A stretch of 64,000 bases of DNA, taken from positions 4,861,694-4,925,693 of the forward strand of contig OY282378.1 of NCBI GenBank assembly GCA_958295835.1, in the 5' to 3' direction. The position numbers and the translations under genes were made by a program. The stretch is from an uncultured Gammaproteobacteria bacterium. GTDB taxonomy: Bacteria; Pseudomonadota; Gammaproteobacteria; HK1. How positions within the stretch are numbered: the first letter of the stretch is position 1; every line of letters starts with the position of its first letter. Of this stretch, positions 7,059-25,365 are shown piece by piece. A model generated the notes under the pieces. It saw only the letters and a list, made by a program, of their open reading frames with translations. It was not told where the DNA came from and did no database searches.

Positions 7059-8546
7059 ATGAGCGACACGACGACATCCGCGGACCTCGACGCACGCAAG
7101 CGCGCCCTGCTCGAAGCGTTTCGCCGCTTCCTCCCCCAAGCCTCCGTGCTCCACACCGAGGAGGCGCTGAAGCCCTACGAATGCGACGGGCTCACCGCGT
7201 ACCGGCAGGTGCCCCTCGTCGCGGTGCTTCCCGAGACGGTCGGGCAGGTGCAGGAGGTGATGCGCACCTGCTCGCGCCTCGGCGTGCCGGTGGTCGCGCG
7301 GGGGGCGGGCACGGGGCTCTCGGGCGGCGCCCTGCCGCTGGCCGGCGGGGTCCTGCTGAGCCTCGCGAAGCTCAACCGGATCCTGGAGGTGGATACGGTC
7401 AACCGCGTGGCGCGGGTGCAGCCGGGGGTGCGCAACCTCGCGATCTCCGAGCACGTCGCGCCGCTCGGGCTCTACTACGCGCCGGACCCCTCCTCGCAGA
7501 TCGCGTGCAGCATCGGCGGCAACGTCGCGGAGAACGCGGGGGGGCTCCACTGCCTGAAGTACGGCCTCACCGTGCACAACGTCCTGGAGCTCACCGTGAT
7601 CACCGTGGACGGGGAGCGCATGACCATCGGCAGCGGCGCCCTCGACGCCCCCGGCTACGATCTGCTGGCGCTGATGACCGGCTCGGAAGGGCTGCTCGGA
7701 GTGGTGGTCGAGGTCAGGGTGAAGCTCCTGCCGAAGCCCGCCTGCGCGAGGGTGCTGCTCGCGGCGTTCGAGGACGTGGAGAGCGCCGGCGCGGCGGTGG
7801 GCGCGATCATCGCCGGGGGCGTCCTCCCCGCCGGACTGGAGATGATGGACAACTTCGCCATCCGCGCCACCGACGACTTCTGCGGCGCGGGCTATCCGAC
7901 CGATGCCGCCGCTATCCTGCTCTGCGAGCTCGACGGCATCGAGGCGGAGGTCGAGGACCGGATCGCGGAGGTGGGCGAGGTGCTCCACCGCTGCGGGGCG
8001 ACCGAAGTGCGGGTGGCGCGCGACGAGGCCGAACGCGCGCGCTTCTGGGCCGGGCGCAAGGCCGCCTTCCCCGCCGCCGGCCGGCTCTCGCCGGACTACC
8101 TCTGCATGGACGGCACCATCCCGCGGCGCGAATTGCCGGCGGTGCTCAACCGCATGAAGGCGCTCTCCGAGGAATCGGGCCTGCGGATCATGAATGTGTT
8201 CCACGCCGGCGACGGCAACCTGCATCCGCTGATCCTCTACGACGCGAACGCGCCGGACGAGCTCGAGACGGCCGAGCGTGTCGGTGCACGGATCCTCGAA
8301 TTGTGCGTCGAGGTCGGGGGGACGATCACCGGCGAGCACGGGGTGGGGGTGGAGAAGATCGACCAGATGTGCGTGCAGTTCGCATCCCCGGAGCTTGCGC
8401 AGTTCCACGCCGTGAAGGGCGCGTTCGACCCGCACGGGCTGCTCAACCCCGGCAAGGCGGTGCCGACCTTGCAGCGCTGCGCCGAGTTCGGCGCCATGCA
8501 CGTGCACGGCGGCCGGCTGCCGTTCGCGGAGATCGAGCGGTTCTGA
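7059..8546 (+). CDS. glcD: Glycolate oxidase FAD-binding subunit GlcD
   Basis: This 495-residue flavoprotein oxidises glycolate to glyoxylate together with GlcE and GlcF. The PCMH-type FAD domain is clear: VVARGAGTGLSGGALPLAGG, then GGNVAENAGGLHCLKYG and GSEGLLGVVVEVRVKLLP. The C-terminal domain contains NVFHAGDGNLHPLILYD, EHGVGVEKI and the end motif FDPHGLLNPGKAVP. Length and motifs fit GlcD fully. GlcE and GlcF normally follow directly; here they lie 12.7 kb downstream, beyond an unrelated cluster. Confidence 0.95.
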   Translation: MSDTTTSADLDARKRALLEAFRRFLPQASVLHTEEALKPYECDGLTAYRQVPLVAVLPETVGQVQEVMRTCSRLGVPVVARGAGTGLSGGALPLAGGVLLSLAKLNRILEVDTVNRVARVQPGVRNLAISEHVAPLGLYYAPDPSSQIACSIGGNVAENAGGLHCLKYGLTVHNVLELTVITVDGERMTIGSGALDAPGYDLLALMTGSEGLLGVVVEVRVKLLPKPACARVLLAAFEDVESAGAAVGAIIAGGVLPAGLEMMDNFAIRATDDFCGAGYPTDAAAILLCELDGIEAEVEDRIAEVGEVLHRCGATEVRVARDEAERARFWAGRKAAFPAAGRLSPDYLCMDGTIPRRELPAVLNRMKALSEESGLRIMNVFHAGDGNLHPLILYDANAPDELETAERVGARILELCVEVGGTITGEHGVGVEKIDQMCVQFASPELAQFHAVKGAFDPHGLLNPGKAVPTLQRCAEFGAMHVHGGRLPFAEIERF

Positions 8547-8704
8547 ACGAATCCGGCGAGCCCGATGGGTAAATGGATGGTAAGGCATCATGTAGGATTC
8601 CCCCGGCCCCGTTCCGCGCGGGCTCGACACCGCCTCCGCAATGGACGACCGACGGGCGGGAGGCGGAAGGCGCAAACCCGTTTCCATCGAAAGGGAGAAC
8701 GAGC

Positions 8705-8995
8705 ATGGACATCGACCTCTCCTCCGTGGCCGCACGCAACGAGGCGATCGTCTTCACCGACCTCGACGACACCGTCGTGATGATGGACGTCGACGAGGGG
8801 CAGTACTACGAGCTCGATCCGATCGGGGCGAGAATCTGGACCTTGATCGAGGCCGCCCGGCCCGTGGCCGAGATCTGCGACGCGCTGGCGGGCGAGTACG
8901 ACGTCGATCCCGACACCTGCCGCCACGACACGCTGGAATTCCTGCAAACGGCAAGCGAGTACCGGCTCGTCCGGGTGCAGCCCGCCGGAGCGTGA
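8705..8995 (+). CDS. PqqD-like RiPP recognition protein (lasso B1-like)
   Basis: This 96-residue protein has the PqqD/RRE fold signature: a beta-rich N-terminus (EAIVFTDLDDTVVMMDVDEGQYYELD), the hinge PIGARIWTLIE, then helices with ICDALAGEYDVDPDTCRHDTLEFL. Such domains bind leader peptides and deliver precursors to modifying enzymes; in lasso systems this role is called B1. The start at 8705 has AAAGGGAG upstream. It is the first gene of the inserted block between glcD and glcE. PqqD-like proteins also occur in exopolysaccharide clusters with HprK-like kinases, so the RiPP role depends on the two peptide genes at 13.7-14.4 kb. Confidence 0.82.
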   Translation: MDIDLSSVAARNEAIVFTDLDDTVVMMDVDEGQYYELDPIGARIWTLIEAARPVAEICDALAGEYDVDPDTCRHDTLEFLQTASEYRLVRVQPAGA

Positions 8996-9157
8996 AAGAG
9001 GCGCGAGTCCGGCCTCCGGCCGCGGCCTCGTCGAAGGGGACCGATGCCCCCGAGCAGGACGGCGAATCCCGCGTGAGCCACCCTGCTCCCGGCGCGGCGG
9101 GTAGGTCCGGCGTTGGCGAAAGGCAGCGGGTTCCTCCTGTCCGGTACCGGTCCTGAC

Positions 9158-10120
9158 ATGGCCCTGTCCGGCACACCTCCCGGCTCGGCGGAGCCCGGGC
9201 CCGATCCGGGGGGCGAGCATCGAAGGGTCTGCCTCGCCACGGTGACCACGGACGGCTTCCTGCCCGGAACGCTGGTGATGGTCGCGTCCTTCCTCAAGGC
9301 ACACCCCGGCTTCGACGGGGACGTGGCCGTCATCCACGACGGGCTGTCCGAAGAAGCGAAGGCGTGCCTCGGGGCGTTGTACGACCGGGTGCGGTTCGAG
9401 ACGCCCTCCGCCGAGCTCAAGGACCGGCTGGCCCGCGTGGGCGCCGCCCACCCCCGCTTCGCGCCCATCCTGTGCCATCTGCATGCGTTCGAAGCGTACC
9501 GGCTGGCCGGGTATCGGAAGGTGCTGCTCTGCAACGGCGACCTGCTGTTCCGGCAGCCGATCGACGAGCTGTTCGATGCCGAAGACCTTCTGCTGTGTTG
9601 CGGAGACCAGGTTTTTCTGGCGGGAGGATACCGTGACGCGGCGACCTTCATGCCTCTGGCCGCCCCGTCATGCGCGGGCGCCGCCGGCGTCCTTGGACAG
9701 ACGTTCAACGACGGGTTTCTGGTCCTCGACGGCAGCCTTCCGGGAGAGCGGCGCTATGCGGACCTGCTGGCCCTGGTGACGCCGGAGACGTGGCGCGACA
9801 CCGACACGCCGCATTTCAAGCAGCTCGTCCACAACCGGTACTTCACGGGGCGGCAAACGTTGATCAGCTCCGCGTACAACTACATCCTGCTGGCCGCTAC
9901 CGCCATTCGGGCGAGGGAGGGGCTTGCCGCGACGGACGCCAAGGTCCTGCATTTCAATCTGAACGCGAAGCCCTGGATGCCGGCGACGATGCTGCGCTGG
10001 ATGAACGGCGGGACGCCGGTCCCCGAGTTCAGGCTCTGGTACGACGCCTGGATGGACTCGCTGTCCGTCGGTCATCTCCGCGCTTCGAAGCGATCCGTGC
10101 GATGGACGGTCGTTGCATGA
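9158..10120 (+). CDS. GT8-like glycosyltransferase, single domain
   Basis: This protein of 320 residues resembles family 8 (glycogenin-like) glycosyltransferases. The nucleotide-sugar block reads RVCLATVTTDGFLPGTLVMV, and the metal site reads YRKVLLCNGDLLFRQP, with N-x-D where the two domains at 17.8-19.9 kb have D-x-D. A C-terminal block LHFNLNAKPWMP with conserved His and Lys is also typical. It is a paralogue of the double protein at 17806-19893. A TTG at 9113 in frame is an alternative start. Its 3' end overlaps the convergent HprK-like gene by 49 bp. The acceptor may be a peptide of this cluster; that is inference. Confidence 0.8.
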   Translation: MALSGTPPGSAEPGPDPGGEHRRVCLATVTTDGFLPGTLVMVASFLKAHPGFDGDVAVIHDGLSEEAKACLGALYDRVRFETPSAELKDRLARVGAAHPRFAPILCHLHAFEAYRLAGYRKVLLCNGDLLFRQPIDELFDAEDLLLCCGDQVFLAGGYRDAATFMPLAAPSCAGAAGVLGQTFNDGFLVLDGSLPGERRYADLLALVTPETWRDTDTPHFKQLVHNRYFTGRQTLISSAYNYILLAATAIRAREGLAATDAKVLHFNLNAKPWMPATMLRWMNGGTPVPEFRLWYDAWMDSLSVGHLRASKRSVRWTVVA

Positions 10121-11052
10121 GGGGCAGCGGCTCCTTGCCGGCCCATCTCACCCAGCCACTCCTCGATTCGATCCGCCAGCGCGTCGAGCCGGAACGCAGA
10201 CGCGGGCCTCCTCACGCCCACGACCGGCACACGCCTTGCCAGCGCCACGAAGGTGCGGAAGTGGGCCGGCTGCTGCCCGAGCCCGCGCAGGTACTTCCCG
10301 CGGTAGGTATGCCTGCACAGCCATCCGAAGGCGTCGGCGGGCGGCGCCGTCCGGACCTCGATGCGCTCCCGCTGGTGGCTCCCCAGCACACAGACGGCGC
10401 GCACCGCCAGCGGTGTGGTCCGGAATCGCTCCACCGGGACCAGATACTTCTCCCACCCCTCCCGCACCCTGCCCCGCGCCCGTTCCTGCCAGGCCAGCTC
10501 GTCCAGCGTGTCTGCCCACAGCTTCATGCGGGGAAAGGCGGACAGCGCCACCGCACCGCCGCCCGCGTCCGGCACCACCCCCGTCACGTCGTCGGCCAGC
10601 ATCGCGTAGCCGCGCTCGACGAGCGCCGCGAGCAGCGACGATTTGCCTGTGCCCGGATCGCCCGCGAACAGCACCGCCCCCGAATCCGTCTCAATGGCGC
10701 CGGCATGAAGGAGGGCCACGCCACGCTGCTGCAACAGGGCGGCGAACACCGAGCCGGTGAGGAAGAGGCCGACCACGTCGTCGCTGCCGCCCCTCGGCTC
10801 GACGAGGATGTCGCGGCCGCCGGTGACCAGGAATCGGGCGCCGTCGCGCACGTTCCTCAGGTAGGCGCCGGGGGCGGTCTCCCACGGGCCGCGGCTTTCG
10901 ACGGGCGCCGGGAGCGCCTCCGGGGTCGCGCCGATGCGGACCGTCACGTCCGGTTCACCGGCCGGGGGGACGGGAACGCGGATGAACGGCAGGGCGATGG
11001 GCGAGCGCACCCACAGCCCATACGCCCGATAATCGAGCAGAGGGCGGCTCAC
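10072..11052 (-). CDS. HPr-kinase/serine-kinase-like protein, candidate RiPP tailoring kinase
   Basis: This 326-residue protein has a complete P-loop (GDPGTGKSSLL, residues 131-141) preceded by LLHAGAIETDSGAVLFA and followed by a MLADDVTGVVP segment, matching the HprK/P kinase fold. HprK-like kinases (LasK type) phosphorylate the C-terminal Ser of some lasso precursors; both candidate peptides here end in Ser. The GTG start at 11052 is supported by a second locus whose HprK copy begins VSRPLRDYRAYGLWVR after the same GTGA overlap. The upstream partner in this overlap is an ATPase fragment rather than an intact gene. Confidence 0.8.
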   Translation of the reverse strand: MSRPLLDYRAYGLWVRSPIALPFIRVPVPPAGEPDVTVRIGATPEALPAPVESRGPWETAPGAYLRNVRDGARFLVTGGRDILVEPRGGSDDVVGLFLTGSVFAALLQQRGVALLHAGAIETDSGAVLFAGDPGTGKSSLLAALVERGYAMLADDVTGVVPDAGGGAVALSAFPRMKLWADTLDELAWQERARGRVREGWEKYLVPVERFRTTPLAVRAVCVLGSHQRERIEVRTAPPADAFGWLCRHTYRGKYLRGLGQQPAHFRTFVALARRVPVVGVRRPASAFRLDALADRIEEWLGEMGRQGAAAPHATTVHRTDRFEARR

Positions 11053-11243
11053 ACGGGATCCACCGTCTTGCCCGTCCGGCGCGGTGCGTGCAGCACGATG
11101 CATTTCTTCATCCGAACGAGCGCCGGCGCCTCGTCGAGGTCGAAACGCCCGAGCGGCGGGAGGCAGTGGTGGTCCGCGGGTCTGACGGGACCGGTGGTGT
11201 CGAAGAAGCGCACGGCCTCGGTTCCTCGATTCCTCGTTTCCAT
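11049..11243 (-). pseudogene. Truncated AAA-ATPase-like gene (N-terminal fragment ending at the P-loop)
   Basis: A 64-residue frame reads METRNRGTEAVRFFDTTGPV, then RPADHHCLPPLGRFDLDEAP and IVLHAPRRTGKT, and ends four residues after the Walker A Lys-Thr. The pattern FF.TTGP.RP.DH...PP plus APRxTGKT is the start of a widespread family of 450-550-residue AAA-ATPase-like proteins. Everything after the P-loop is missing. Its stop overlaps the HprK start as GTGTGA, the same overlap geometry a sulfotransferase has with the HprK copy at 42451. A rearrangement joining this fragment to the HprK 5' end is the simplest reading. Confidence 0.6.
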
Positions 11244-11432
11244 CGGCAACGTCCCTGCCGGTGGTCGTTGCAGGCCGCCGTCGGCATGACCGCTTCCGCA
11301 CGGCGGTGCCTCCGGTATCATCCGGCACAGCCTCGGTCTCGTGCAACCATGATCGGGCAGCCGTGCCATCGTCGACCGCGAGCGCCGACACGCCTTGGAA
11401 CCTCCGGTTGATTCCGTAGAACATGTTCACAC

Positions 11433-11550
11433 GATGGACTCCCTCGATGCGTTCTCCAGCCGAACGGCGGCGGGGGGCGATGCGCCCGCCGCCGGGACGC
11501 TCCCGCACGTTGCCCATGCGCCGGACGGCGCCGGCGCCCTGATGCGATGA
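11433..11550 (+). CDS. Possible 38-residue leader ORF coupled to the cyclase gene
   Basis: ATG at 11433 opens a frame (MDSLDAFSSRTAAGGDAPAA and 18 more residues) whose TGA overlaps the cyclase ATG as ATGA. No Shine-Dalgarno sequence is visible. The stretch RTAA..DAPAA is repeated upstream of the cyclase-start remnant at 17684, where the frame runs straight into the cyclase start without a stop. It could be a coupling peptide or chance. Confidence 0.25.
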
Positions 11551-13434
11551 CGGCGATCTGCGGCACGGTCGGGCGCCACGAGGCCCCGGCGGGCGGGGTG
11601 GACGCCATGCTGGCGGCAATGACCCACTCCGGCGCCGACGTCGCCTCCTGGACCGATGCCGGCGTGAGCCTCGGGCGCCGTTGCGCCGCGGGCGACGGCG
11701 CGACGCCCCGGGGCGCCGCGGCCCCGGCCCCGGCGCCGGACGTTCCCGGCACGGTCGTCGTGGCCGATGCCCGGCTCGACGACCGCGATACGCTTTGCGG
11801 CGCGCTGGGCCTGCCGCCCGCCGCCCGCGCGGCCCATGACGACCGCGCCCTCATCGCGAAGGCGTACCGGCGATGGGGCGCCGACTGTCCGCGCCACCTC
11901 CTCGGCGACTACGCCTTCGCCGTGTGGGACGCGGCGAAGCGCACGCTGTTCTGCGCTCGGGACCACGTCGGCGCGCGGCCGTTCTACTACGCCGAGACGC
12001 GGCGAGGGTTCGTCTTCGCCAGCGCCATCGAAGCCGTGCTCGCCGGCCCGGACGTCGGCCGCGAGCTCGACGAATTCACGGTGGGGATGTGGCTGATGAG
12101 GAGGGACGCGGAGCTCCCCGCCACAAGCACGTTCTTCCAGGCCGTGCGCAGGCTGCCGCCGGGGCATGGCCTCGTGGTCACGAACGGCGCGGTGCGGCTG
12201 CAACGCTACTGGCGGCCGGAGGACGTGCCGCGGGCGGCGCCGGCCTCCGACGACGACTACGCCGAGGAGTTTCTGGCCCTGTATTCGCGGGCGGTGAAGG
12301 ACCGCCTGTGCGGCCCCGGCCGGATAGGCGTCCATCTGAGCGGCGGCCTGGACTCGTCGAGCGTCGCGGTCCTCGCCGCCCGCGAATTGCGGCGCCAGGG
12401 CCGTCCGCCGCCGCCTGCCTTCACCTGGCTGCCGCCATTGGGCGAAGAGCCGCCGGGGGAGAGCGGTGGGTGGGAGTACGATGCCGTCGGCGCGGTGGCC
12501 GGGCAGGAGGGGTTGCATGTGTTCCTCCAGCCTCCAACCGCGGCGGACACCCTCGCCCTGCTGCGGTGCGACGGCGCCTTTCCACAAGCGCACGTTGGTC
12601 CCAACGAAGCGGCAGTGCAGCGCGCAGCCGCCGCGCACGGGGTGCGCGTGCTGCTGTCCGGCCTGGGGGGCGACCAGGGCATCTCCTTCAACGGCTACGG
12701 ATATTACGCCGGCCTGCTGCTGGGTGGACGTTGGGCCGCGTTGTTCGCCGAGGCGCGCGCCCGCGGGAGCAATCCGCTCCGGGTGGCGGCCGGCACCGCG
12801 TTGAGGGTTCTTCCACACGGCTACAAGCTGCTCATTCCGAGGAACAGGCTGCGCAAGTGGTTGCAGGGGGACCCGGAGCCGAGGGCCCGGCGCTTCATCA
12901 ACCGGGCGTTCGCGCGGGAAAGGCCGTTTCCCCCCCCCCCCCCCCCCCCGAACGAGACGTTGGCCGACGAGTGCGCGAAGGGGTCAATTGGAGTCGTTGG
13001 GCCACCGGGGTCTTGGCGAGCACCTGGAGTGGTGGGCCGCCAGCGGCGTTCGCCACGGCCTGGAGTACCGGTATCCGCTGCTGGACCGCCGGGTGCTGGA
13101 GCTCGCCTTGAGCCTCCCGACGGAACAGTTCAGGCGCGGGCCGTCGAGCCGCTGGCTGATGCGCCATGCGCTGGCCCTCGATGCCGTCCTGCCGCCCGAG
13201 GTGTGCTGGCACGAGTCCAAGAGCGACCCGGCGCGTTTCAACGCGGCATCCGACGCATTCCTCGGGGCGCTGCCGTCGATTCGGCGGGAGCTCGCCGCCC
13301 GTGCCGTGCCGCCGGGCCGGGCCCGCTACGTCGACATGCCGCGCCTCGTCGAACGTCTGGAGGACCCGGCCCTGTCCAGGAGGAGACGTTCGTGGTCGGG
13401 GCTTGCGGCGGCCTTGTCGTTTCTTGATTTCTGA
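11547..13434 (+). CDS. Asparagine-synthase-like lasso cyclase (C protein), frame broken at a poly-C tract
   Basis: The N-terminal glutaminase-like domain starts MTAICGTVG. Cys is at position 5 and not 2, so the glutaminase nucleophile is absent, as in lasso cyclases. It continues with LLGDYAFAVWDAAKRTLFCARDH. The synthetase domain has the ATP-binding HLSGGLDSSSVAVLAA at about residue 263 and LLSGLGGDQGISFNGYG. The frame is read to a 20-nt C run at 12930-12949; homology then resumes one frame over (LGEHLEWWAASGVRHGLEYR, YPLLDRRVLELALSLPTEQF) to the stop at 13434. The combined product of about 625 residues has the normal length of lasso C proteins. Without slippage the product ends at 13427 with an unrelated tail. 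Confidence 0.8.
12930..12949 (+). repeat. 20-nt poly-C homopolymer inside the cyclase gene
   Basis: Twenty consecutive C residues follow CCGTTT at 12924-12929. They encode a proline run and are exactly where the cyclase frame must change by one base. This could be a slippage-prone contingency tract or a sequencing/assembly length error. Confidence 0.9.
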
Positions 13435-13587
13435 CACCATCGGACAGCACGCCGGACGCCGGCGACGCGCGCGGCCGGCCGGGCGCCGCCGACGTGGGCC
13501 GCGGCGGCGAGCAGGCCGCCGGCTCGGGCAGGCGCCTCGACTTGAGAAGAAGGCGATTGCGCGGCCTTGAAACCACCTGGCCCTCCG

Positions 13588-13617
13588 TTGACGCCGTGGC
13601 CCGGTCGAGTCGAGAAT
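13588..13617 (+). promoter_or_regulatory. Putative sigma-70 promoter of peptide gene 1
   Basis: TTGACG at 13588-13593 and GAGAAT at 13612-13617 are separated by 18 bp, 67 bp before the peptide ATG. The same pair is kept in the second repeat unit with a consensus -35 (TTGACA). Confidence 0.45.
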
Positions 13618-13683
13618 TGCACTCCCTGTCCATACTGCGAAGCTCGGATGATGGTGCCGAGCCTTGGCTGGAGAAGAAACGAG

Positions 13684-13881
13684 ATGACGCATGTCCCCCC
13701 CACGTCTGAGCCTGAGGACCTGCAGCGCTCCGAACACTCGCCGACGCAGAGCTCCGAACGAACGTGGTCCAAGCCCCAAGTGAGGCGGGTGATGCTCACA
13801 GGCACAGGCGGTAACCCCGATTCCCTGCCTGGTACGCGTGAATGGGGGGGGTTCGGTGGTACCTACAGACCCTCCAGCTAG
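13684..13881 (+). CDS. Candidate lasso-like RiPP precursor 1 (65 residues)
   Basis: The peptide begins MTHVPPTSEPEDLQ and has a leader motif TWSKPQVRRVMLTGTGG (residues 27-43), close to the W/Y-x-x-P-x-V/L motif that PqqD-type recognition proteins bind. The C-terminal part (44-65) contains PD at 45-46, GT at 50-51, E53, several Gly and YRP, and ends in Ser65. A good SD (GGAG) lies upstream. It follows the cyclase on the same strand. If cut between G42 and G43, the first acids are D4 and E11, which does not fit a canonical 7-9-residue lasso ring; starting at G40 would put Asp at position 7. The cleavage site is therefore open. Confidence 0.65.
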   Translation: MTHVPPTSEPEDLQRSEHSPTQSSERTWSKPQVRRVMLTGTGGNPDSLPGTREWGGFGGTYRPSS

Positions 13882-14092
13882 CAGACAAAGGTAGTCCGGA
13901 GCGTCTCGGCCTCGGTCGCCTTCCGGTGGTGGCCCCCGGTACACGGGCGGCGCCCCACCGCCAGCGGGACGTCGGCGGCGCCCGGCCGGCCGGGCGCCGC
14001 CGACGTGGGCCGCGGCGGCGAGCAGGCCGGACAGATGACGTGCTACTACACCGGACAGACTATTTGCTCCTGACAAACCACTTGGCCCTCCG

Positions 14093-14122
14093 TTGACACC
14101 GTGGCCCGGTCGAGTCGAGAAT
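14093..14122 (+). promoter_or_regulatory. Putative sigma-70 promoter of peptide gene 2
   Basis: TTGACA at 14093-14098 and GAGAAT at 14117-14122 are spaced by 18 bp. The arrangement matches the first repeat unit base for base except the last -35 position. Confidence 0.5.
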
Positions 14123-14188
14123 TGCAGTGCCGGTTCATGCTGCGAAGCTCGAATGGTGACGCCGAGCCTTGGCTGGAGGAGAAACGAG

Positions 14189-14386
14189 ATGACGCCTGTC
14201 CCCCCCACGCCTGAGCCTGAGGACCTGCAGGGCTCCGAGCGCTCGCGGACGCAGAGCTCCGGACGAACGTGGTCCAAGCCCCAAGTGAGGCGGGTGATAC
14301 TCACAGACACAGGCGGTGAACCCGATCGCCCGCAGGGTACTCAGGAAGCGGGGAATGTAGGCGAGGGCTACAGACCCATGAGCTAG
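14189..14386 (+). CDS. Candidate lasso-like RiPP precursor 2 (65 residues)
   Basis: This is a paralogue of precursor 1 with identical length. The leader reads TWSKPQVRRVILTDTGG at residues 27-43. The C-terminal region (44-65) keeps PD, GT, E53, G55, G58, YRP and the terminal Ser, but differs at most other positions. The leader is conserved and the core has diverged, as expected when one enzyme set processes two products. SD GGAGGAG precedes the ATG at 14189. Confidence 0.65.
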   Translation: MTPVPPTPEPEDLQGSERSRTQSSGRTWSKPQVRRVILTDTGGEPDRPQGTQEAGNVGEGYRPMS

Positions 14387-14845
14387 CAGACGAAGCAGTC
14401 CGGAGCGTCTCGAAGCAACCTTTCACCGGCAGGCGCCGGCCGCCGGTACCGTCTCGACCTCGATCGCCTTCCGGTGGCGGCCCCCGGTACACGGGCGGCG
14501 CCCCACCGCCAGCGGGGCGGCCGGAACCGCTCCCTCGTCAGGACATACCGGCCCTGTCAGAAAATTTTCTTCAATCCAGCTTGCACGAGGACGGCGTTGG
14601 CCGTGTGCCGAGACTTGACGTCACCGTCCACCGGGAAGCTCCGATTCGAGATCGTACTGAACCAGATTTCGTGATCCCCGCGTCCTTGACGGACGAAACG
14701 GCACCCGGACGCCTTGAGGTGCTTCCTCTTTTTTCTCCGACCGCTACATTTGCCACGCCCGGAAACGGTATCGCGTCAGGTAAGGGCCTGACAACCGGCG
14801 GTCTTGTCCAACGAGAGATGAGCCTGAAGGGAGCCGGATCCTGGT
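14387..14845. other. Gap between peptide gene 2 and sulfotransferase 1
   Basis: No gene is supported here. The stretch contains the end of the second tandem unit (to about 14520) and, at 14801-14832, a 32-bp sequence found again in inverted orientation at 46643-46674. Confidence 0.5.
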
Positions 14846-15784
14846 TCAATCTCGCATCTCGTAGCCAAAATGGCCGAAGAGGTCGCAGCGCTCGTGGAAC
14901 ACCCGATTGAACGCGGCGACCTGTCCGGCGGTGAGGCGCGCGATCTGCCGGGCGTTCATGTCGGTGAGCATCTCGTCGTACCGGCCCTTCACCGGCAGGC
15001 GCCGGCGCAGCTCCAGGTCGCCGAGCTCCGGGGCCAGCGCCTGGATCTCCCGCCCCACCCGCTCCGGATCCGCGCACATCGCCTCGTAGGTGAAGAACAC
15101 CCCGCGGCGCCCGTGGGCTTCGACGTTGCGGCGCTGGCGGGCAAGGCAGTTCACGACGTGCACGGCCGCCCATTCTTCCAGGCCGCGTCCCTGCCACGTC
15201 GCCGATGCCGGGTCCGCACCGTGCCTTTCCCGGTAGCTTCGGCAGATCCCTTCGCAGGCCGCGTAAGGGTCGCGCACCATGAACAGGAACCTGGCGTTGC
15301 GGAAGTGCCGTGCCAGCATGTCCACCTGGAAGAGCGCCCGCGGCGAGTGCACGACGAACACCGACGCCTTCGGGTCGCGGGCGCGCGCCATGAAATACCA
15401 CGCCTTGCGGTTGCGCGGCCAGTCGTAACCGGCGGCGCCGGCCAGCCGGTCCATGCGTGGCCGGCTGGCCGCCCAGAGCTTGGATGGTCTCGGCATGTCG
15501 GGTGACTCCACCCGAGGGGGCTGGACGAAGCCCGGCATCCGATCGGCCTCGCCGGGCAGGCTCCAGGCCGACCGGCAGGCGGCCAGCGCTTTCCCAAGGA
15601 ACGTCGACCCGCCGTGATTCGCCGAGATGACGAACAAGTGGGTCCCGATCGTGGGCTCCAGGTCGCGGCCGGCGGCGTACACCATCCCCCCCGCTCCGTC
15701 GTCCGCGCACCGGCCGTGCGGACGAGTTGCGCAAGCGCTACGGGGACCGGGTCCGGTGGGTGCGCATCCGTCGCCCGTCCGCAT
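14846..15784 (-). CDS. Sulfotransferase family protein 1
   Basis: This protein of about 312 residues carries a 5'-phosphosulfate-binding loop (SANHGGSTFLGKALAAC) and a 3'-phosphate motif (RFLFMVRDPYAACEGICRSY) of PAPS-dependent sulfotransferases. The ATG at 15784 is chosen because the paralogue at 19890-20876 starts with the same pattern (MRTGDG versus MQTDDG); an upstream ATG at 15823 is also in frame. The C-terminal halves of the two paralogues are almost identical (LTDMNARQIARLTAGQ). A sulfated peptide or glycan product is inferred from the context. Confidence 0.78.
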   Translation of the reverse strand: MRTGDGCAPTGPGPRSACATRPHGRCADDGAGGMVYAAGRDLEPTIGTHLFVISANHGGSTFLGKALAACRSAWSLPGEADRMPGFVQPPRVESPDMPRPSKLWAASRPRMDRLAGAAGYDWPRNRKAWYFMARARDPKASVFVVHSPRALFQVDMLARHFRNARFLFMVRDPYAACEGICRSYRERHGADPASATWQGRGLEEWAAVHVVNCLARQRRNVEAHGRRGVFFTYEAMCADPERVGREIQALAPELGDLELRRRLPVKGRYDEMLTDMNARQIARLTAGQVAAFNRVFHERCDLFGHFGYEMRD

Positions 15785-15828
15785 GGTGGACTCGCCCCCG
15801 GTGACCCGAAACGTGCGTATCATGCCCG

Positions 15829-17682
15829 ATGCGTCCCAGGCCGGGGAATGGGTGGTTGCAAGGGAGAAGCGGAGGCGGAGATGGCCGTCACTCGTGCAAC
15901 CGCGCGGACGCCGAAACGGGCCGCTGTCCCATCAAGGCTTTCTCGCGGATCGTGCTGCTGGCGGCGGGCCTCGGCCACGGCGGCGAACCGGCCGCCGCCG
16001 CGCCGCAACGTTCGGCTTGGTTCGGCGATCTTCAAGTGCATACGATGTACTCCACCCACTCGTTCTTGAGGAGAAACCACCGCACCACGCCGGACGACGC
16101 CTACCGATACGCCAAGGGGGGCGCCATCCCCCACCCGCGGGGCGGGGAGGTGAAGCTGTCCGGGCCTCCGCTCGACTTTCTCGCCGTCACCGATCACGCG
16201 GACTTCATGGGCGCGGCGCTGCCGTTGCTCCACCTCGCGAACGACAGCCCTCGGGGCTACCCGGTATCCGAAACCGTCAGGCGGGCGGTGGTGCGCCTCG
16301 TCGAGTCGGGCCGCCTTCAGGAAGTGAGGCGCCGTGCCTGGCGACGCACCGTGGAGGCCGCCGAGCGGCACAACGAGCCGGGCAGGTTCACCACGTTCAT
16401 CGGTTACGAATGGGCGTTCCGCCTTCACGGGAGCAACCTGCACCGCCACGTCGTCTTCGGGAGCGCTGACGTGCCGGCGCTGCCGCTCGGCCCCCGGTAC
16501 TCGCGGGGTCCCGAGGATTTGTGGGACTGGCTCGACCGCCAGCGCGGGCAGGGCATCGAAGCGCTGGCCATCCCGCACAACATGGACAAGAGCAGGGGGC
16601 TCGCCTTTCCGGAGACCGACTGGAAGGGGCGGCCGATCGATCGGGCCTTCGCGGAGAAGCGCCTGCGCAACGAGCCGGTCGTCGAGATCATCCAGGAGAA
16701 GGGTGTTTCCGAGACGCACCCCCTGTTTTCGCCGAACGACGAATGGGCCGACTTCCAGACGTTCCGGTACTACGACGGCAGGGAGAGCCCGGTGGGCGAC
16801 TACTACCGGCAGGGGCTGAAACGCGGCCTCGCGATCGAACGGCGCATCGGCGTCAATCCCTACCGGTTCGGTGCGGTCGGCGGCAGCGACAGCAAGCTGG
16901 GCGCGGGCGCCTTCGATGAAGCCGACTTTTTCAAGTCGAGGCTCGAGCCGCACGAGCGCGGCTCGGCGTACCCGGAAGAACAGGGCGGCTGGGAAGGCTA
17001 CCGGACGCCCCACGTCGCCACTCACGGCAGCGCCGGCCTGACCGGCCTCTGGGCGGAAGAGAACACCCGCGCCGCGCTGTTCCGGGCCCTGCGTCGCCGC
17101 GAGACGTTCGCCACCTCCGGGCCGCGCTTGCGCGTGCGCTTCTTCGGGGGGTTCGGGCTGGCGCAAGGAATCGAGCAGTCCCGGGACCCCGTCGCCGCGG
17201 GCTATGCCCACGGCGCGCCCATGGGCGGGGTGCTGACCGGCGCGGCCGGATCGGCGCCGGACTTCTTCGTCTGGGCCATGCGCGACCCGCGGTCCGGCCG
17301 GCTGCAACGGGCCCAGATCGTCAAGGGCTGGCTGGAGGACGGCGAGGCCCGCGAGCGGGTGTTCGACGTCGCCTGCTCGGGCGGCCTGGAGCCGGACCCG
17401 GACAGCCATCGCTGCCCCGACAACGGCGCGCGCGTCGACCTCGCCGATTGCTCGGTCAGCCGGGACCGGGGCGCGGCGGAGCTGCGCACGGTGTGGACCG
17501 ACCCGGACTTCGATGCCGGCCAGCCCGGTTTCTATTACGTGAGGGTGCTCGAGAACCCGAGCTGCCGCTGGTCCACTTGGGACGCCGTCCGCGCCGGCAT
17601 CGAACCCAATCCCGTCCTGCCCCCGGTCATCCAGGAGCGAGCCTGGAGCTCGCCCGTGTGGTATGCGCCCGGCGGCCCGTAG
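15829..17682 (+). CDS. DUF3604 family protein (PHP-like metallohydrolase fold)
   Basis: This 617-residue protein has the DUF3604 features WFGDLQVHTMYSTHSF, LDFLAVTDHADFMG and FIGYEWAF, with GGSDSKLGAGAF and a C-terminal WSSPVWYAP. The spaced His and Asp residues suggest a metal-dependent phosphoesterase-like site; the biochemical role of the family is not settled. A hydrophobic stretch (FSRIVLLAAGLGHGG) before PAAAAPQ may be a signal peptide, which suggests a periplasmic enzyme. It is divergent from sulfotransferase 1. The start is uncertain; the ATG at 15829 is the first in frame. Why it sits in this cluster is unknown. Confidence 0.8.
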   Translation: MRPRPGNGWLQGRSGGGDGRHSCNRADAETGRCPIKAFSRIVLLAAGLGHGGEPAAAAPQRSAWFGDLQVHTMYSTHSFLRRNHRTTPDDAYRYAKGGAIPHPRGGEVKLSGPPLDFLAVTDHADFMGAALPLLHLANDSPRGYPVSETVRRAVVRLVESGRLQEVRRRAWRRTVEAAERHNEPGRFTTFIGYEWAFRLHGSNLHRHVVFGSADVPALPLGPRYSRGPEDLWDWLDRQRGQGIEALAIPHNMDKSRGLAFPETDWKGRPIDRAFAEKRLRNEPVVEIIQEKGVSETHPLFSPNDEWADFQTFRYYDGRESPVGDYYRQGLKRGLAIERRIGVNPYRFGAVGGSDSKLGAGAFDEADFFKSRLEPHERGSAYPEEQGGWEGYRTPHVATHGSAGLTGLWAEENTRAALFRALRRRETFATSGPRLRVRFFGGFGLAQGIEQSRDPVAAGYAHGAPMGGVLTGAAGSAPDFFVWAMRDPRSGRLQRAQIVKGWLEDGEARERVFDVACSGGLEPDPDSHRCPDNGARVDLADCSVSRDRGAAELRTVWTDPDFDAGQPGFYYVRVLENPSCRWSTWDAVRAGIEPNPVLPPVIQERAWSSPVWYAPGGP

Positions 17683-17683
17683 C

Positions 17684-17830
17684 CGAACGGCGGCGAGCGA
17701 TGCGCCCGCCGCCAAGTCCGCACGTTGCCCATGCGCCGAGCCGCAACGTCGCCCCGATGCGGTGACGGGGATCTGCGGCACGGTCGCACGCCCGGGACGG
17801 AGCGGTCATCCAGCCGCGCCGGAGGCGCCC
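17684..17830 (+). pseudogene. Remnant of a cyclase 5' region and start
   Basis: The upstream region of the cyclase gene (11459-11546) and its first codons are repeated here. The block CCGAACGGCGGCG...CGCACGTTGCCCATGCGCC is followed by a GTG-start frame reading VTGICGTVARPG, which resembles MTAICGTVGRHE of the intact gene. Homology stops after about 12 codons, and the DNA then overlaps the 3' end of the double glycosyltransferase. Confidence 0.6.
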
Positions 17831-19893
17831 GCGCCCCGATGCGCATCGGGGCGCGGGAAGGCGCTGCGCAAACGTACGGCCGCCAGGCAGTCCACGTAGG
17901 CGCCGTACCAGTGCTTGAAGCACGGCGTCATCGCGTCCCGGGCCTTCCCGCCCGCCCACGCGAGCATGGCGTCCGGCCTCCACGGCTTGATGGACGCCCG
18001 GAAATGCAGCACCTTGGCGTTCCGGATGCCGATCCCTTCGCGCGCCTGGATCACGTCGGCCCGCGGGAGCAGGTAGTTGTAGGTCGAGCTCACCAGCGTC
18101 TGGCGCCCCGCGAAGTAGCGGTTCAACACGAGCTGATCGGCGATCCGGACCCTGGCGCGGCGCCAGGTCTCCCCGGACACCATCTCCAGCAGGCCGGCGT
18201 AGCAGCCTGCCCGCACCAACCCTTCGTCGATCAGGAGCAGGCCGCTGTTGAACGTTCCCGCCAAGGTAGAGGATTCCCCGGCGACCGCCTCGGGGCGGCT
18301 CCCGACTGCGGACGGCCGCCCCTCCGGCGTTCGCCGGCCGGAGGCGTCCTCGACCGGCAGGTAGGTGACGGCATCGCGGGGCAGCCCGCGCAGATGCGGC
18401 TCGTCACCGCAGCAGAGCAACGCGTCGCGGGAATCGAACAGCTCCGCGATCGGTGCGCGAAACAGCAGGTCGCCGTCGCAGTACAGCACCTTGCGGTAAC
18501 CGTGCAGGCGGAACGCCTCGAGGGAGTAGAAATGCGCCAGCCTGTCGCGCAGCCTCGGCTGCTCGGCGGACAGGCAGGCCAGCCGATCCCGGAGCTCGGG
18601 CGAGATGGGCTCGAAGCGCAGGCGTTCGGACAGAGGCGCCAACGCCTCGCGCGACGCCGCGGACAGGCCGTCGTGGATGACGACGACGTCCCCGTCGAAG
18701 CGGGGATGATGTTTCAGGAAGGTGCCGAGCATGGCGAACGTGCCCGGCACGAAACCGTCCGTGGTCCCCGTGACCAGACAGACCCTCGAAGGGCGGGGGG
18801 CGACCGCTGGCGCGGTCGCTTGGCGATTCCGCTGCGCGGAATCGCGGGTGCTGCCGGCCACCGCTGGCGCGGTAGCGGCAGCGGCCGGCCCGCGCCGAGG
18901 CGGGGCTTCCGCGAAGCGTTCGCGTTCGGGCCGCTGCGGCGGCCCCCGGAACGGGGCGGGGTTCCGGGGAACCACGGCGATGCCCGGCCGGCCGAGCGCG
19001 TGCCGCAGATGCGCATCCGCCAGACAGTCCATGTAAGCGTCGTACCAGAGCTTGTAGCCCGGGGCGAGCGGGCGGGCGGCGTCCCTGCGCGCCCAGTACA
19101 GCATGGCGTCCGGCGCCCAGGGCTTCATGGGCAGCTTGAAGTGCAGCACCCTGGCGTCCTCGACGCCGATCCCCTCGCGGGCCCGGATGGCGTCGGAGCA
19201 GTCCACCAGGTAGTTGTACGTCGAGCTGACCAGCGTCTGCCGCCCGGCGAAGCGGCGGTTGAGGACGAGCTGGTCGTCGCCCACCGCCTTGACCCCGCGC
19301 CAAGCCTCCGGCGAGATCCTGGCCAGCAGGTCCGCATGCGCGCCCTCCCCCATGAGCCGCCCGTCGAGGAGCAGGAAGCCGCTGTTGAACGTTTCCGCCA
19401 GGGTGGGCGCGGCCGGTGCGGCAACGGGGACGACCGGATCGTCGGCCGGCAGGTAGGTCACCGCGTCGCGCCGCCGGCCGCGCAGGGAGTACTTGTCGCG
19501 GCAGCAGATCAGCGCCTCGGGGGAGTCGAACAACTCCTCGACGGAGGCGCGGAACAGCAGGTCGCAGTCGCAGCACAGCACCTTGCGGTAGCCGTGCAGG
19601 CGGAACGCATCGAGGACGTAGAAAGCTGCCCGCCGGGCGCGGAGCTCCGGACGCACGGCGCACAGGCGCGCCACCCGATCCCGGAGCTCGGGAGAGACGG
19701 GCTCGAACCGCAGGCGGTGGAACGACGCCGCGAGCACTTCGCGCGATGCGTCGGACAGCCCGTCGTGGACGATGACGACGTCCCCGTCGAAGCGGGGATG
19801 GTGCTTCAGGAAGGTGCGCACCATGACGAACGCGCCCGGCACGAAATCGTCCGTGGCCACCGTGAGCAGGCACGTCTTCGACCGCCGCATCAC
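17806..19893 (-). CDS. Double GT8-like glycosyltransferase (two fused domains)
   Basis: This 695-residue protein consists of two GT8-like domains. Domain 1 (about 1-300) has CLLTVATDDFVPGAFVMV, YRKVLCCDCDLLFRAS and LHFKLPMKPWAPDAM. Domain 2 (about 360-680) has RVCLVTGTTDGFVPGTFAML, YRKVLYCDGDLLFRAP and LHFRASIKPWRPDAM. Both keep the metal-binding D-x-D. They are joined by an Ala/Pro/Arg-rich linker and are paralogous to each other and to the single-domain enzyme at 9158. It overlaps sulfotransferase 2 by 4 bp, so the two are co-translated. Two successive sugar transfers, or a two-site enzyme, are possible. Confidence 0.82.
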   Translation of the reverse strand: MMRRSKTCLLTVATDDFVPGAFVMVRTFLKHHPRFDGDVVIVHDGLSDASREVLAASFHRLRFEPVSPELRDRVARLCAVRPELRARRAAFYVLDAFRLHGYRKVLCCDCDLLFRASVEELFDSPEALICCRDKYSLRGRRRDAVTYLPADDPVVPVAAPAAPTLAETFNSGFLLLDGRLMGEGAHADLLARISPEAWRGVKAVGDDQLVLNRRFAGRQTLVSSTYNYLVDCSDAIRAREGIGVEDARVLHFKLPMKPWAPDAMLYWARRDAARPLAPGYKLWYDAYMDCLADAHLRHALGRPGIAVVPRNPAPFRGPPQRPERERFAEAPPRRGPAAAATAPAVAGSTRDSAQRNRQATAPAVAPRPSRVCLVTGTTDGFVPGTFAMLGTFLKHHPRFDGDVVVIHDGLSAASREALAPLSERLRFEPISPELRDRLACLSAEQPRLRDRLAHFYSLEAFRLHGYRKVLYCDGDLLFRAPIAELFDSRDALLCCGDEPHLRGLPRDAVTYLPVEDASGRRTPEGRPSAVGSRPEAVAGESSTLAGTFNSGLLLIDEGLVRAGCYAGLLEMVSGETWRRARVRIADQLVLNRYFAGRQTLVSSTYNYLLPRADVIQAREGIGIRNAKVLHFRASIKPWRPDAMLAWAGGKARDAMTPCFKHWYGAYVDCLAAVRLRSAFPRPDAHRGAGASGAAG

Positions 19894-20876
19894 CTTCTCC
19901 CTCCGGGAGCGGCGCTCTTCCCTGGGAGCGATGCTCCCCCCGGAAGCGGCGTTTCTCCCGGCCGGAGCGCCCCGCCATCAAGCATCTCGTAGCCGAAGTG
20001 GTCGAAGAGATCCCGGCGCTCGCGGAAGACCCGGTTGAACGCGGCGATCTGCCCGGCGGTGAGGCGGGCGATCTGCCGGGCGTTCATGTCGGTAAGCACC
20101 TCGTCGTACCGGCCCTTCACCGGCAGGCGCCGGCGCAGGTCCAGATCGTCCAGCTCCGGGACCAGCGCCCGGATCTCCCGCGCCACCCGCTCCGGATCCG
20201 CGCACATCGCCTCGTAGGTGAAGAACACCCCGCGGTCCCCGCGGGCTTCGACGTTGCGGCGCTGGCGGGCAAGGCAGTGGACGACGTGGGCGGCGGCCGT
20301 CTCTTCCAGGCTCCGTCCCCCCTCCGCGGCCCCCGGCAGGTGGTCCCGCCCGAACCGGCGCCGGAAGCTCCGGCAGATCCCCTCGCAGACCGCGTAAGGG
20401 TTGCGCACCATGTACAGGAACCTGGGGTTGCGGAAATGCCGGGCGAGCTGGCCGACCTGGAAGACGTGCTGCGACGACTTCTCGACGAACACCGATGCGC
20501 CGGGGTCGCTGGCGCGGGCGAAAAAATACCATGCCTTGCGGGTGCGCGCCCAGTCGTGGCGGCCCGGATCGGCGAAGAGGGCGATGCTGCGCGGCTCGGC
20601 GGCCCAGATGGCGAGCTCCGGGCCCTGCGTCGTGACCGGCCCGGCGTAGCCGGGGACCGCCTGGCCCTCACAGGGAAAGCTCCAGACGGCCCGGCAGGCC
20701 GCCAATGCGCCCGCCAGGAAGGAGGAGCCGCTGTTGTTCGGGCAGATGACGAACAGGTGAGCGGCGATCGTGTTCTCCGGGTCGCGGGTGGCGCCGCGGA
20801 CGAGCGCACGCTCCGCTCCGGCGGCCCGAGGCGGTCCGGTCCTGTGTGCGGGTGCGCGTCCGTCGTCCGTCTGCAT
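19890..20876 (-). CDS. Sulfotransferase family protein 2
   Basis: This 328-residue paralogue of sulfotransferase 1 shares the 5'-phosphosulfate loop (CPNNSGSSFLAGALAAC), the 3' motif (RFLYMVRNPYAVCEGICRSF) and a nearly identical C-terminus. Its C-terminal tail repeats a PG.A/S pattern (GETPLPGGASLPGKSAAPGG). The ATG at 20876 is the only reasonable start. It is followed, with a 4-bp overlap, by the double glycosyltransferase. Confidence 0.78.
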   Translation of the reverse strand: MQTDDGRAPAHRTGPPRAAGAERALVRGATRDPENTIAAHLFVICPNNSGSSFLAGALAACRAVWSFPCEGQAVPGYAGPVTTQGPELAIWAAEPRSIALFADPGRHDWARTRKAWYFFARASDPGASVFVEKSSQHVFQVGQLARHFRNPRFLYMVRNPYAVCEGICRSFRRRFGRDHLPGAAEGGRSLEETAAAHVVHCLARQRRNVEARGDRGVFFTYEAMCADPERVAREIRALVPELDDLDLRRRLPVKGRYDEVLTDMNARQIARLTAGQIAAFNRVFRERRDLFDHFGYEMLDGGALRPGETPLPGGASLPGKSAAPGGRR

Positions 20877-21039
20877 GGTGGGCTGGTCCGATGATCCGGA
20901 AGGTGCGGGACGCCGCCTGCGCGGCGCCGGCGGCGGTGCGGCCCAGGCGCCGCTTCAACCTTCTTGATCGAGCGAATTCGACGAGTCGCGGCAGCACTCG
21001 GCGAATTGACCCGAATTTTGAAAGGTTCCCTTATGATAG

Positions 21040-21131
21040 AACCGGGGAGTCGTTCAAGGACACGATTCTTCTGCGAAGACCATCGGCAGAGAACGATCGT
21101 TCAGCATTCCATGAATTCATCGACACGGCCT
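21040..21131 (-). mobile_element. Decayed IS5-family element end
   Basis: The sequence from about 21058 to 21130 (CATCGGCAGAGAACGATCGT ... TTCCATGAATTCATCGACACGGCCT) is a diverged copy of the right end of the IS at 24387-25266. Its reverse frame reads MNSWNAERSFSADGLRRRIV, which resembles the start of that IS's transposase frame. It lies exactly at the junction between the inserted cluster and glcE. Confidence 0.65.
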
Positions 21132-21280
21132 GATGAAGGGAGATGGCGTGCAGAGACGCCGGCGGAACCGCCACCTCTGCCCCGTACATCGCGGCGGGCT
21201 CACTCACCGTCACCACTCGGGTCAACCTTTCCCGCATCCGACGTCGCCCTGCCACCAGCCCGTTACGATGGATTCGATCG

Positions 21281-22357
21281 ATGGACGCCGACCTGACCGA
21301 ATCCCTGTCCGCGAGGATCCGGGCCGCCGCCGATGACGGTACGCCGCTGGCGATCGCCGGGGGTGGCACCAAGGACTTCCTGGGCCGCATCACGCAGGCG
21401 GAACGATTCGACGTCTCCGGCCACCGGGGCATCGTCACCTACGAGCCCACCGAGCTCGTGCTCTCCGCGCGCGGCGGCACCCCGCTCGCGGAAGTGCGGG
21501 CGGCGCTCGCGGAGAAGGGGCAGATGCTCGCCTTCGAGCCGCCCGCGTTCGGCGAGGCTGCGACCATCGGCGGCGCCGTGGCGGCCGGGCTCTCCGGCCC
21601 GGCCCGCCCCTACGCCGGGGCGGCGCGCGACTTCGTGCTCGGCACCCGGGTGCTGAACGGCCGGGGCGAGGCATTGCGCTTCGGCGGCGAGGTGATGAAG
21701 AACGTCGCCGGGTACGACGTCTCGCGCCTCATGACCGGCGCGTTCGGCACCCTGGGGGTGCTGCTCGAGGTCTCGCTGAAGGTGCTGCCGCGCCCGGCGC
21801 AAGCGCGCACCCTCGCGTTCGAGACGAGCACGGAGGAAGCGATCGCGCGATGCAACGCCTGGGCCGCGAAGCCGCTGCCGATCACCGGCGCCTGCCACCA
21901 CGGCGGACGCCTGTACGTGCGGCTCGCGGGCACGGCGGGGGGCGTCGCCGCCGCGGCCGATGCCCTCGGCGGTGAGACCGTCGACGGCGAGACCGTCGAT
22001 GGCGATGCGTTCTGGCCGGCGCTCCGCGAACAGGCCCTCCCCTTCTTCACCCGGCACGGCCCGCCGCTGTGGCGGGTGTCGGTCCCCCCCGGCGCCCCGG
22101 CCCTGGACGTCGACGGCGACCGCCTCACCGACTGGGGCGGCGCCCAGCGCTGGCTGCGCACCGACGCGCCGGCCGCGGAGGTGCGTGCCGCCGCCGGGCG
22201 CATCGGCGGACATGCAACGCTCTTCCGCGGCGGCGATCGCACCGACGCGGTGTTCCATCCCCCGGCCCCGGCGGTGCTGAAGCTCCACGAGAGGATCAAG
22301 GCCGCCTTCGACCCGGCCGGCATCCTCAACCCCGGCCGGATGTACGAGGGGATCTGA
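21281..22357 (+). CDS. glcE: Glycolate oxidase FAD-binding subunit GlcE
   Basis: This 358-residue protein has the PCMH-type FAD fold (PLAIAGGGTKDFLGR; VLSARGGTPLAEV; GGEVMKNVAGYDVSRLMTGAFGTLGVLLEVSLKVLP) and the family ending FDPAGILNPGRMY. GlcE pairs with GlcD and GlcF at the membrane. A Val/Asp/Gly/Glu/Thr repeat (GETVDGETVDGD) interrupts the middle. The ATG at 21281 is used because the FAD domain begins soon after it. glcF follows after 74 bp. Confidence 0.93.
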   Translation: MDADLTESLSARIRAAADDGTPLAIAGGGTKDFLGRITQAERFDVSGHRGIVTYEPTELVLSARGGTPLAEVRAALAEKGQMLAFEPPAFGEAATIGGAVAAGLSGPARPYAGAARDFVLGTRVLNGRGEALRFGGEVMKNVAGYDVSRLMTGAFGTLGVLLEVSLKVLPRPAQARTLAFETSTEEAIARCNAWAAKPLPITGACHHGGRLYVRLAGTAGGVAAAADALGGETVDGETVDGDAFWPALREQALPFFTRHGPPLWRVSVPPGAPALDVDGDRLTDWGGAQRWLRTDAPAAEVRAAAGRIGGHATLFRGGDRTDAVFHPPAPAVLKLHERIKAAFDPAGILNPGRMYEGI

Positions 22358-25266: not shown

Positions 25267-25365
25267 GTGAATTAGTGCCCCGGGGCACTAATTCGAGCTC
25301 GCGCCCTGCCGCGGGTCAAGCACGCATCCGCTGACGAGCGCCTCCGGTCCCGTGGCTTGCGAGCT

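Follow-up and report, generated by a model that had tools for sequence, protein, structure and literature searches.

Organization of the block between glcD and glcE

The 64-kb stretch of DNA considered here, termed the window, is derived from an uncultured gammaproteobacterium whose genome (G000) is represented by one contig of 5.73 Mb. In this window, a block of 12.5 kb (8582-21072) separates glcD from glcE-glcF and harbors a PqqD-type leader-binding protein (B1), a lasso-type isopeptide cyclase (C), two precursor genes and a set of putative tailoring enzymes. On the basis of the sequence comparisons described below, this block is probably a satellite locus of a distributed, phase-variable and decorated lasso-peptide system. 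The original prediction had placed 12.3 kb of unrelated genes between glcD and glcE, which is confirmed with the edges now set at 8582 and 21072, and the genes that it named (PqqD-like, GT8-like, HprK-like, cyclase, two peptide genes, two sulfotransferases and DUF3604) were all recovered by model matches. Comparisons were made with a congener (G003) and a genome of another genus (G005); L-numbers denote extracted loci with their own internal coordinates, and C1 denotes a contig. The features are listed as follows.

7059-8546, plus strand: glcD, left flank of the insertion, 99% identical in G003
8582-21072, no strand assigned: inserted lasso block, its edges being the limits of homology to the G005 cluster (blastn)
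8705-8995, plus strand: B1, PqqD-type leader-binding protein (recognition element of a ribosomally synthesized and post-translationally modified peptide, RiPP); PF05402 4e-21, NF033536 (lasso PqqD) 2.6e-19
9113-10120, plus strand: GT8-like glycosyltransferase; PF01501 7.5e-11
10072-11052, minus strand: HprK-like peptide kinase (putative tailoring enzyme K), GTG start, with Walker A GxxGxGKSS and ADDV motifs
11053-11369, minus strand: AAA ATPase relic, FFDTTGPVRPADHH...RRTGKT, recognized by sequence inspection
11547-13434, plus strand: C, lasso isopeptide cyclase, frameshifted at a poly-C run; NF033535 8e-83 (N part) and 6e-13 (C part)
12930-12949, plus strand: C20 homopolymer at the frame change of the cyclase
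13684-13881, plus strand: precursor A1, ATG followed by a C7 leader, W-S-K-P-Q-V motif, core ...GGNPDSLPGTREWGGFGGTYRPSS
14189-14386, plus strand: precursor A2, tandem copy, core ...GGEPDRPQGTQEAGNVGEGYRPMS
14846-15823, minus strand: sulfotransferase ST1; PF13469 2.6e-13
15829-17682, plus strand: DUF3604 protein; PF12228 7e-195
17741-17792, plus strand: 5'-terminal remnant of a second lasso cyclase (VTGICGTVAR), 85% identical to 11503-11577
17806-19893, minus strand: tandem GT8 protein of two domains; PF01501 2e-25, two stretches
19890-20876, minus strand: sulfotransferase ST2; PF13469 2.8e-12
21056-21137, plus strand: decayed insertion sequence (IS) end at the right junction, 83% identical to 25190-25271
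21143-22357, plus strand: glcE, right flank

The best NCBIfam match of B1 is the lasso PqqD model NF033536, yet its score lies under the 80-bit cut-off of that model, and its nearest solved structure is TbiB1, a lasso B1. The cyclase, which had been proposed as asparagine-synthase-like, is matched best by the lasso isopeptide cyclase model NF033535 (1.7e-95 for an intact copy elsewhere in the genome, all below the 525-bit cut-off), and its reading frame is broken by the frameshift at the run of 20 C. The HprK-like gene is likewise present, although the longer open reading frame first chosen for it was wrong and the gene is the GTG-started one on the minus strand.

Precursor peptides and putative tailoring enzymes

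Both of the peptide genes suspected earlier were verified on the plus strand. A1 and A2 encode 65 amino acids each and are 86% identical over 300 nt. A precursor hidden Markov model (HMM), which was built from these lasso loci, recovered both window genes and many further ones in relatives; applied at E<=1e-4, it gave zero matches in a class-wide sample of 368 other genomes. None of the NCBIfam models for precursors themselves matched. The W-x-K-P leader motif is found in every family member, partly by construction of the search, while a C-terminal Ser is present in 56 of the 68 precursors and a Tyr among the last nine residues in 64 of them. The combination of a Thr at position -2 and an acidic residue at position 7-9 of the core fits 28/68 precursors, and another 20 carry Ile or Val at -2; under the Thr(-2) rule, many family members begin with Ser, Gly, Ala or Thr and have Glu9 or Asp8. 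A1 and A2 show a Thr-Gly-Gly register, in which the same cut would give Gly1.

At most loci of G000, G003 and G005, the cyclase is found together with genes for a kinase, a sulfotransferase and a GT8 protein, which indicates a conserved association. Co-occurrence of the PqqD, cyclase, GT8 and sulfotransferase families had been put forward as a check; the linkage of precursor, cyclase, kinase, sulfotransferase and GT8 is kept at many loci in relatives. The Walker A and ADDV motifs of the kinase are retained in 10 relatives. HprK-type lasso kinases are known to phosphorylate the C-terminal Ser ahead of threading (PMC8498205), and the gene-level hallmark of the paeninodin type, an HprK-like kinase together with a C-terminal Ser, is present here (10 kinases with the motifs; Ser in the proportion given above).

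A sequence-only PDB search with the sulfotransferase yielded nothing useful. The AlphaFold model of ST2 (predicted local distance difference test score, pLDDT, 82.5) has tyrosylprotein sulfotransferases as its seven top structural matches (Z 17.0-17.8), which are followed by the Curacin sulfotransferase CurM (Z 16.2). The best matches are TPST1/2, which share 14-15% sequence identity with ST2; the putative substrates have a conserved Tyr near the C-terminus, and the likely 3'-phosphoadenosine 5'-phosphosulfate (PAPS)-loop region and Glu70 of ST2 are kept in 15 relatives. From this model, we infer that TPST-like enzymes may sulfate the precursor Tyr.

The DUF3604 gene stands where G003 and G005 have a gene for a tetratricopeptide repeat (TPR)/2-oxoglutarate (2OG)-Fe(II) oxygenase, and it is probably a lineage-specific replacement rather than part of the pathway. 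A related TPR-oxygenase (L081 4930-5838) adjoins the second lasso PqqD of G000, which makes this type of oxygenase a candidate for additional tailoring. Intact AAA ATPases that share the N-terminal motif of the relic flank several lasso loci (L023 1756-3369; L086 7932-9545).

A single B2 and a probable distributed pathway

No B2, the transglutaminase-like leader peptidase (PF13471), is present within the block. G000 contains just one PF13471 gene, located at 3942 kb, approximately 930 kb from the block, which passes the NCBI lasso B2 model NF033537 with 74.4 bits against a cut-off of 33 and adjoins an ATP-binding cassette (ABC) exporter and an NTP_transf_5 gene. Exactly one B2 was likewise found in each of G003 and G005. 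The other components are more numerous: G000, G003 and G005 have 6, 11 and 4 lasso cyclases above 250 bits, 2, 2 and 1 lasso-type PqqD genes, and 8, 20 and 5 matches to the precursor HMM, respectively, a few of the last being partial or containing a stop. Five metagenome-assembled genomes (MAGs) of Pseudomonadales gave 24, 18, 7, 5 and 2 precursor matches; in four of them a single B2 lies over the cut-off, and in the remaining MAG, the one with two precursors, two B2 genes do so. The simplest reading would be that one B2 and its exporter act in trans for many loci.

Next to the core locus (L025 5123-8880), which consists of NTP_transf_5, the lasso B2 and the ABC exporter, a satellite was observed with a cyclase, a sulfotransferase, a rhamnosyl-transferase-like protein, a GT8 protein and a kinase. 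Elsewhere in G000, a 2.4-kb copy of window positions 11289-13682, covering the cyclase and the region upstream of the precursor, lies at G000:C1:406647 (L023 6237-8617) with 98% identity. It has no precursor, kinase or other lasso genes nearby, and its surroundings match the sequence adjoining the G005 cluster at 96-98% identity.

Probable movement of the block between genomes

In 14 other genomes of the family, glcD and glcE are adjacent with a gap of about 210 bp or less, while among the family genomes compared they are split only in G000 (12.6 kb) and G003 (14.2 kb), which answers the earlier call for relatives whose glc genes lack the insert. Family MAGs assembled from short reads in which lasso genes are missing (G001, G002, G004 and others) were not counted as true absences, because assemblies of this kind may lose repeats. 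In G005 the same block occupies a different chromosomal site, with a blastn identity of 91-95% over most of the shared segments. The block proteins of G000 and G005 are 91-98% identical in amino acid sequence, but the glcD of G005, whose glcDE is intact, is just 70% identical, a difference suggesting that the block was transferred horizontally in recent times. At the G005 cluster site, one flank matches G000 at 396 kb with 98% identity, and the other flank does not. The decayed IS end that had been noted at the right junction is real, and its homologous stretch belongs to an IS lying to the right. Horizontal transfer, possibly assisted by an IS, would have brought the block to the glcD-glcE junction.

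Poly-C tracts

About 65 precursor genes were found in the relatives, and in 32 of them the start codon is directly followed (within ~30 nt) by a run of C12-C26; the other precursors have C5-C10 at the same position, apart from one group without a tract. The 38 genes with at least eight C and an identifiable start are spread evenly over the three frames relative to the leader (in frame, 12; +1, 12; +2, 14), as would be expected if the tract length were drifting freely. When read out of frame, the genes run into a stop after a median of 16-18 codons. Since the out-of-frame copies still end in Ser (23/26) and keep the Tyr near the end (26/26), these genes do not look decayed. Seven of the 15 tracts of at least 12 C in the whole G003 genome are situated at precursor starts, versus 0.003 expected. 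The relatives thus possess a 5' coding tract whose length sets the frame, as is characteristic of phase-variable contingency loci, and from their sequences the tracts look like on/off switches by which precursor genes could be switched reversibly. The precursors orthologous to those of the window show C7 in frame (window), C6 followed by TT in frame (G003) and C8 out of frame (G005).

The cyclase tract is C20 in the window, at the exact frame change, and C13 in the 98% identical intact copy at 406 kb, while the G003 and G005 orthologues read CCCGCCCC at this position. Provided that the assembly gives the lengths correctly, the two copies therefore imply that the tract length changed within the lineage and that the frame was lost as a result.

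Several further tracts were observed. Two C16-C19 tracts, 1.4 kb apart, occur at G000:C1:2225734 and 2227124 (L072), one of which heads a lasso precursor whose core is replaced by unrelated sequence; this replacement suggests recombination between tract-bearing genes. Three tandem lasso precursors at L144 (G056:C1:311-314 kb) carry C17, C20 and C20, all in frame as assembled. A 45-nt G run (L038 11794-11838) lies in an apparent IS transposase gene near a lasso locus, and the tracts are thus not confined to lasso genes.

Proposed pathway

We infer a pathway in which every enzymatic step, the supply of B2 in trans and the reversible switching are deduced from the genes described above. Translation of the precursors A1 and A2 would require an in-frame C run after the start codon, a requirement to which the C7 here conforms. 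The local PqqD-type B1 would then bind the W-x-K-P-x-V/I motif of the leader, and the HprK-like kinase would phosphorylate the C-terminal Ser. The leader would be removed by the B2 of the core locus ~930 kb away, which is accompanied by the ABC exporter and NTP_transf_5, and the isopeptide ring would be closed by the asparagine-synthetase-type cyclase; the window cyclase is off as assembled, owing to the C20 frameshift, and its function could be provided by the C13 copy at 406 kb. The TPST-like sulfotransferases may sulfate the Tyr of the C-terminal Y-x-P-x-S, the GT8 proteins may add sugar, and the exporter of the core locus would secrete the product. Slippage of the C tracts, in precursors of the relatives and in the window cyclase, would turn each peptide on or off independently of the others.

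Weighing of alternative explanations

Several points weigh against a distributed and switchable lasso system. The evidence comes from assembled sequences, the scores of the cyclase and B1 fall below the curated cut-offs of NF033535 and NF033536, and the action of B2 in trans rests on its absence near the other lasso loci. A1 and A2 have just C7, while the sole long-tract precursor of G000 (L072) has a disrupted core. Some C tracts sit in unrelated genes, including a likely transposase, and assembled C-run lengths may err by one or more bases, so that single on/off states are unreliable. Under the Thr(-2) rule, moreover, the cores of A1 and A2 lack Asp or Glu at positions 7-9, the next conserved acid being Glu11, which makes their ring closure uncertain: cleavage may occur at another site, the ring may be unusual, or no lasso may be formed. 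A non-canonical product, with an 11-residue ring closed at Glu11 or a cut at another site, is improbable in our estimation. Glu11 is kept in four orthologous or paralogous precursors, including those of G003 and G005, three of which are without an acid at 7-9, and in the alignment it shares a column with Glu9 of other family members; natural lasso rings, however, comprise 7-9 residues, with ten reached in vitro only (PMC8498205), Asp9 is present in the G003 orthologue (and only there), and the cleavage site is itself a predicted one.

The cores without an acid at 7-9 also speak for a decaying cluster, a dead passenger of the glc operon that has lost its B2 and ring acid and retains a cyclase pseudogene, as do the cyclase frameshift, the cyclase and ATPase relics within the block and the replacement of the oxygenase gene by DUF3604. 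Decay of this kind is nevertheless judged unlikely: the open reading frames of B1, K, GT8, the sulfotransferases and the precursors are open, the enzymes are 91-98% identical to the G003 and G005 copies, an intact cyclase survives at 406 kb, and the lack of B2 is the rule at the satellite loci of relatives, where cyclases are intact. It is somewhat less improbable, albeit still doubtful, that the C tracts are assembly errors or neutral repeats of a GC-rich genome rather than switches. Homopolymer length is the commonest error of long reads, and the tracts in unrelated genes fit this explanation too; against it, the tracts recur just behind the precursor start in independent genomes and leader families, far over chance, the out-of-frame copies retain conserved cores, and tract length varies between paralogues whose flanks are nearly the same. 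The exopolysaccharide-type locus that had been offered as an alternative, considered here as an HPr-rel-A or XrtA-type locus with no RiPP, is hardly credible. PqqD, HprK-like and amidotransferase proteins do co-occur in polysaccharide-type loci, and weak matches to TIGR04353, TIGR04352 and TIGR03108 were obtained, but these models stay far under their cut-offs (PqqD_rel_X 17.5 of 35 bits, HprK_rel_A 39 of 200, XrtA amidotransferase 118 of 817) and the lasso models lead. The precursor genes are conserved and found together with cyclases, and relatives carry, apart from these loci, a more divergent PqqD/HprK/amidotransferase locus (L030, L051), so this proposal fails on model scores and linkage. 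The cyclised and tailored RiPP of the original prediction, by contrast, is supported by the presence of B1, C and precursors whose leaders contain a lasso-type motif.

Relation to known systems and implications

The claim that no described lasso system has this combination of enzymes has to be narrowed, since lasso clusters with sulfo-, glyco- and nucleotidyl-transferases are reported from uncultured symbionts in sponge metagenomes (PMC9426513); the passages of that report considered here give cluster content only and mention no shared B2, satellite dispersal or poly-C. On the strength of that report, one may speculate that the present organism lives in a sponge as well. The clusters of paeninodin, pseudomycoidin and bsf resemble the present system in the split B1/B2, C, the HprK-like kinase and, mostly, the C-terminal Ser, and the NTP_transf_5 gene beside B2 at the core locus may be compared with PsmN (PMC8498205, PMC9266682, PMC10368454). 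In contrast to the paeninodin type, B2 and the exporter lie here outside the cluster, in one distant locus for many, the leader motif is W-x-K-P instead of Y-x-x-P, and sulfotransferases, GT8 proteins and poly-C tracts are present. In the literature searched, whose coverage is incomplete, no report was found of poly-C tracts in lasso precursors, of phase-variable lasso peptides or of one B2 serving many dispersed lasso loci. Kinase-tailored lasso peptides are well characterized, and decorated lasso clusters are known from the sponge metagenomes of PMC9426513.

The tracts are similar to the contingency loci of Neisseria, Campylobacter and Bordetella in being coding poly-C/G runs of several lengths, with three frames and off states that stop early. 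The known targets of homopolymer contingency loci are mostly surface structures and their biosynthesis, whereas the tracts lie here in genes for a ribosomal natural product, namely those of the lasso precursors and, in one case, of the cyclase. In bacteria adapted to a host, phase variation is a typical mark of surface antigens.

Taken one step further, the probable satellite locus described here would belong to a combinatorial arsenal of up to ~20 dispersed precursors, many with a three-state poly-C switch, which are served by one shared leader peptidase and exporter and decorated with phosphate, sulfate and sugar; cells would display differing peptide sets, and satellites would move between genera as units. 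This wider picture is favored by a slight margin over its negation. If it is true, genome mining would be misled, for gene calling misses frameshifted precursors, and a cluster lacking B2 seems incomplete. One B2 that takes many leaders would offer a means of removing leaders promiscuously, and TPST-like enzymes encoded next to peptides whose Tyr is conserved would offer a route to sulfated lasso peptides. For the organisms themselves, it would mean that a population diversifies its peptide output through bet-hedging instead of regulation.

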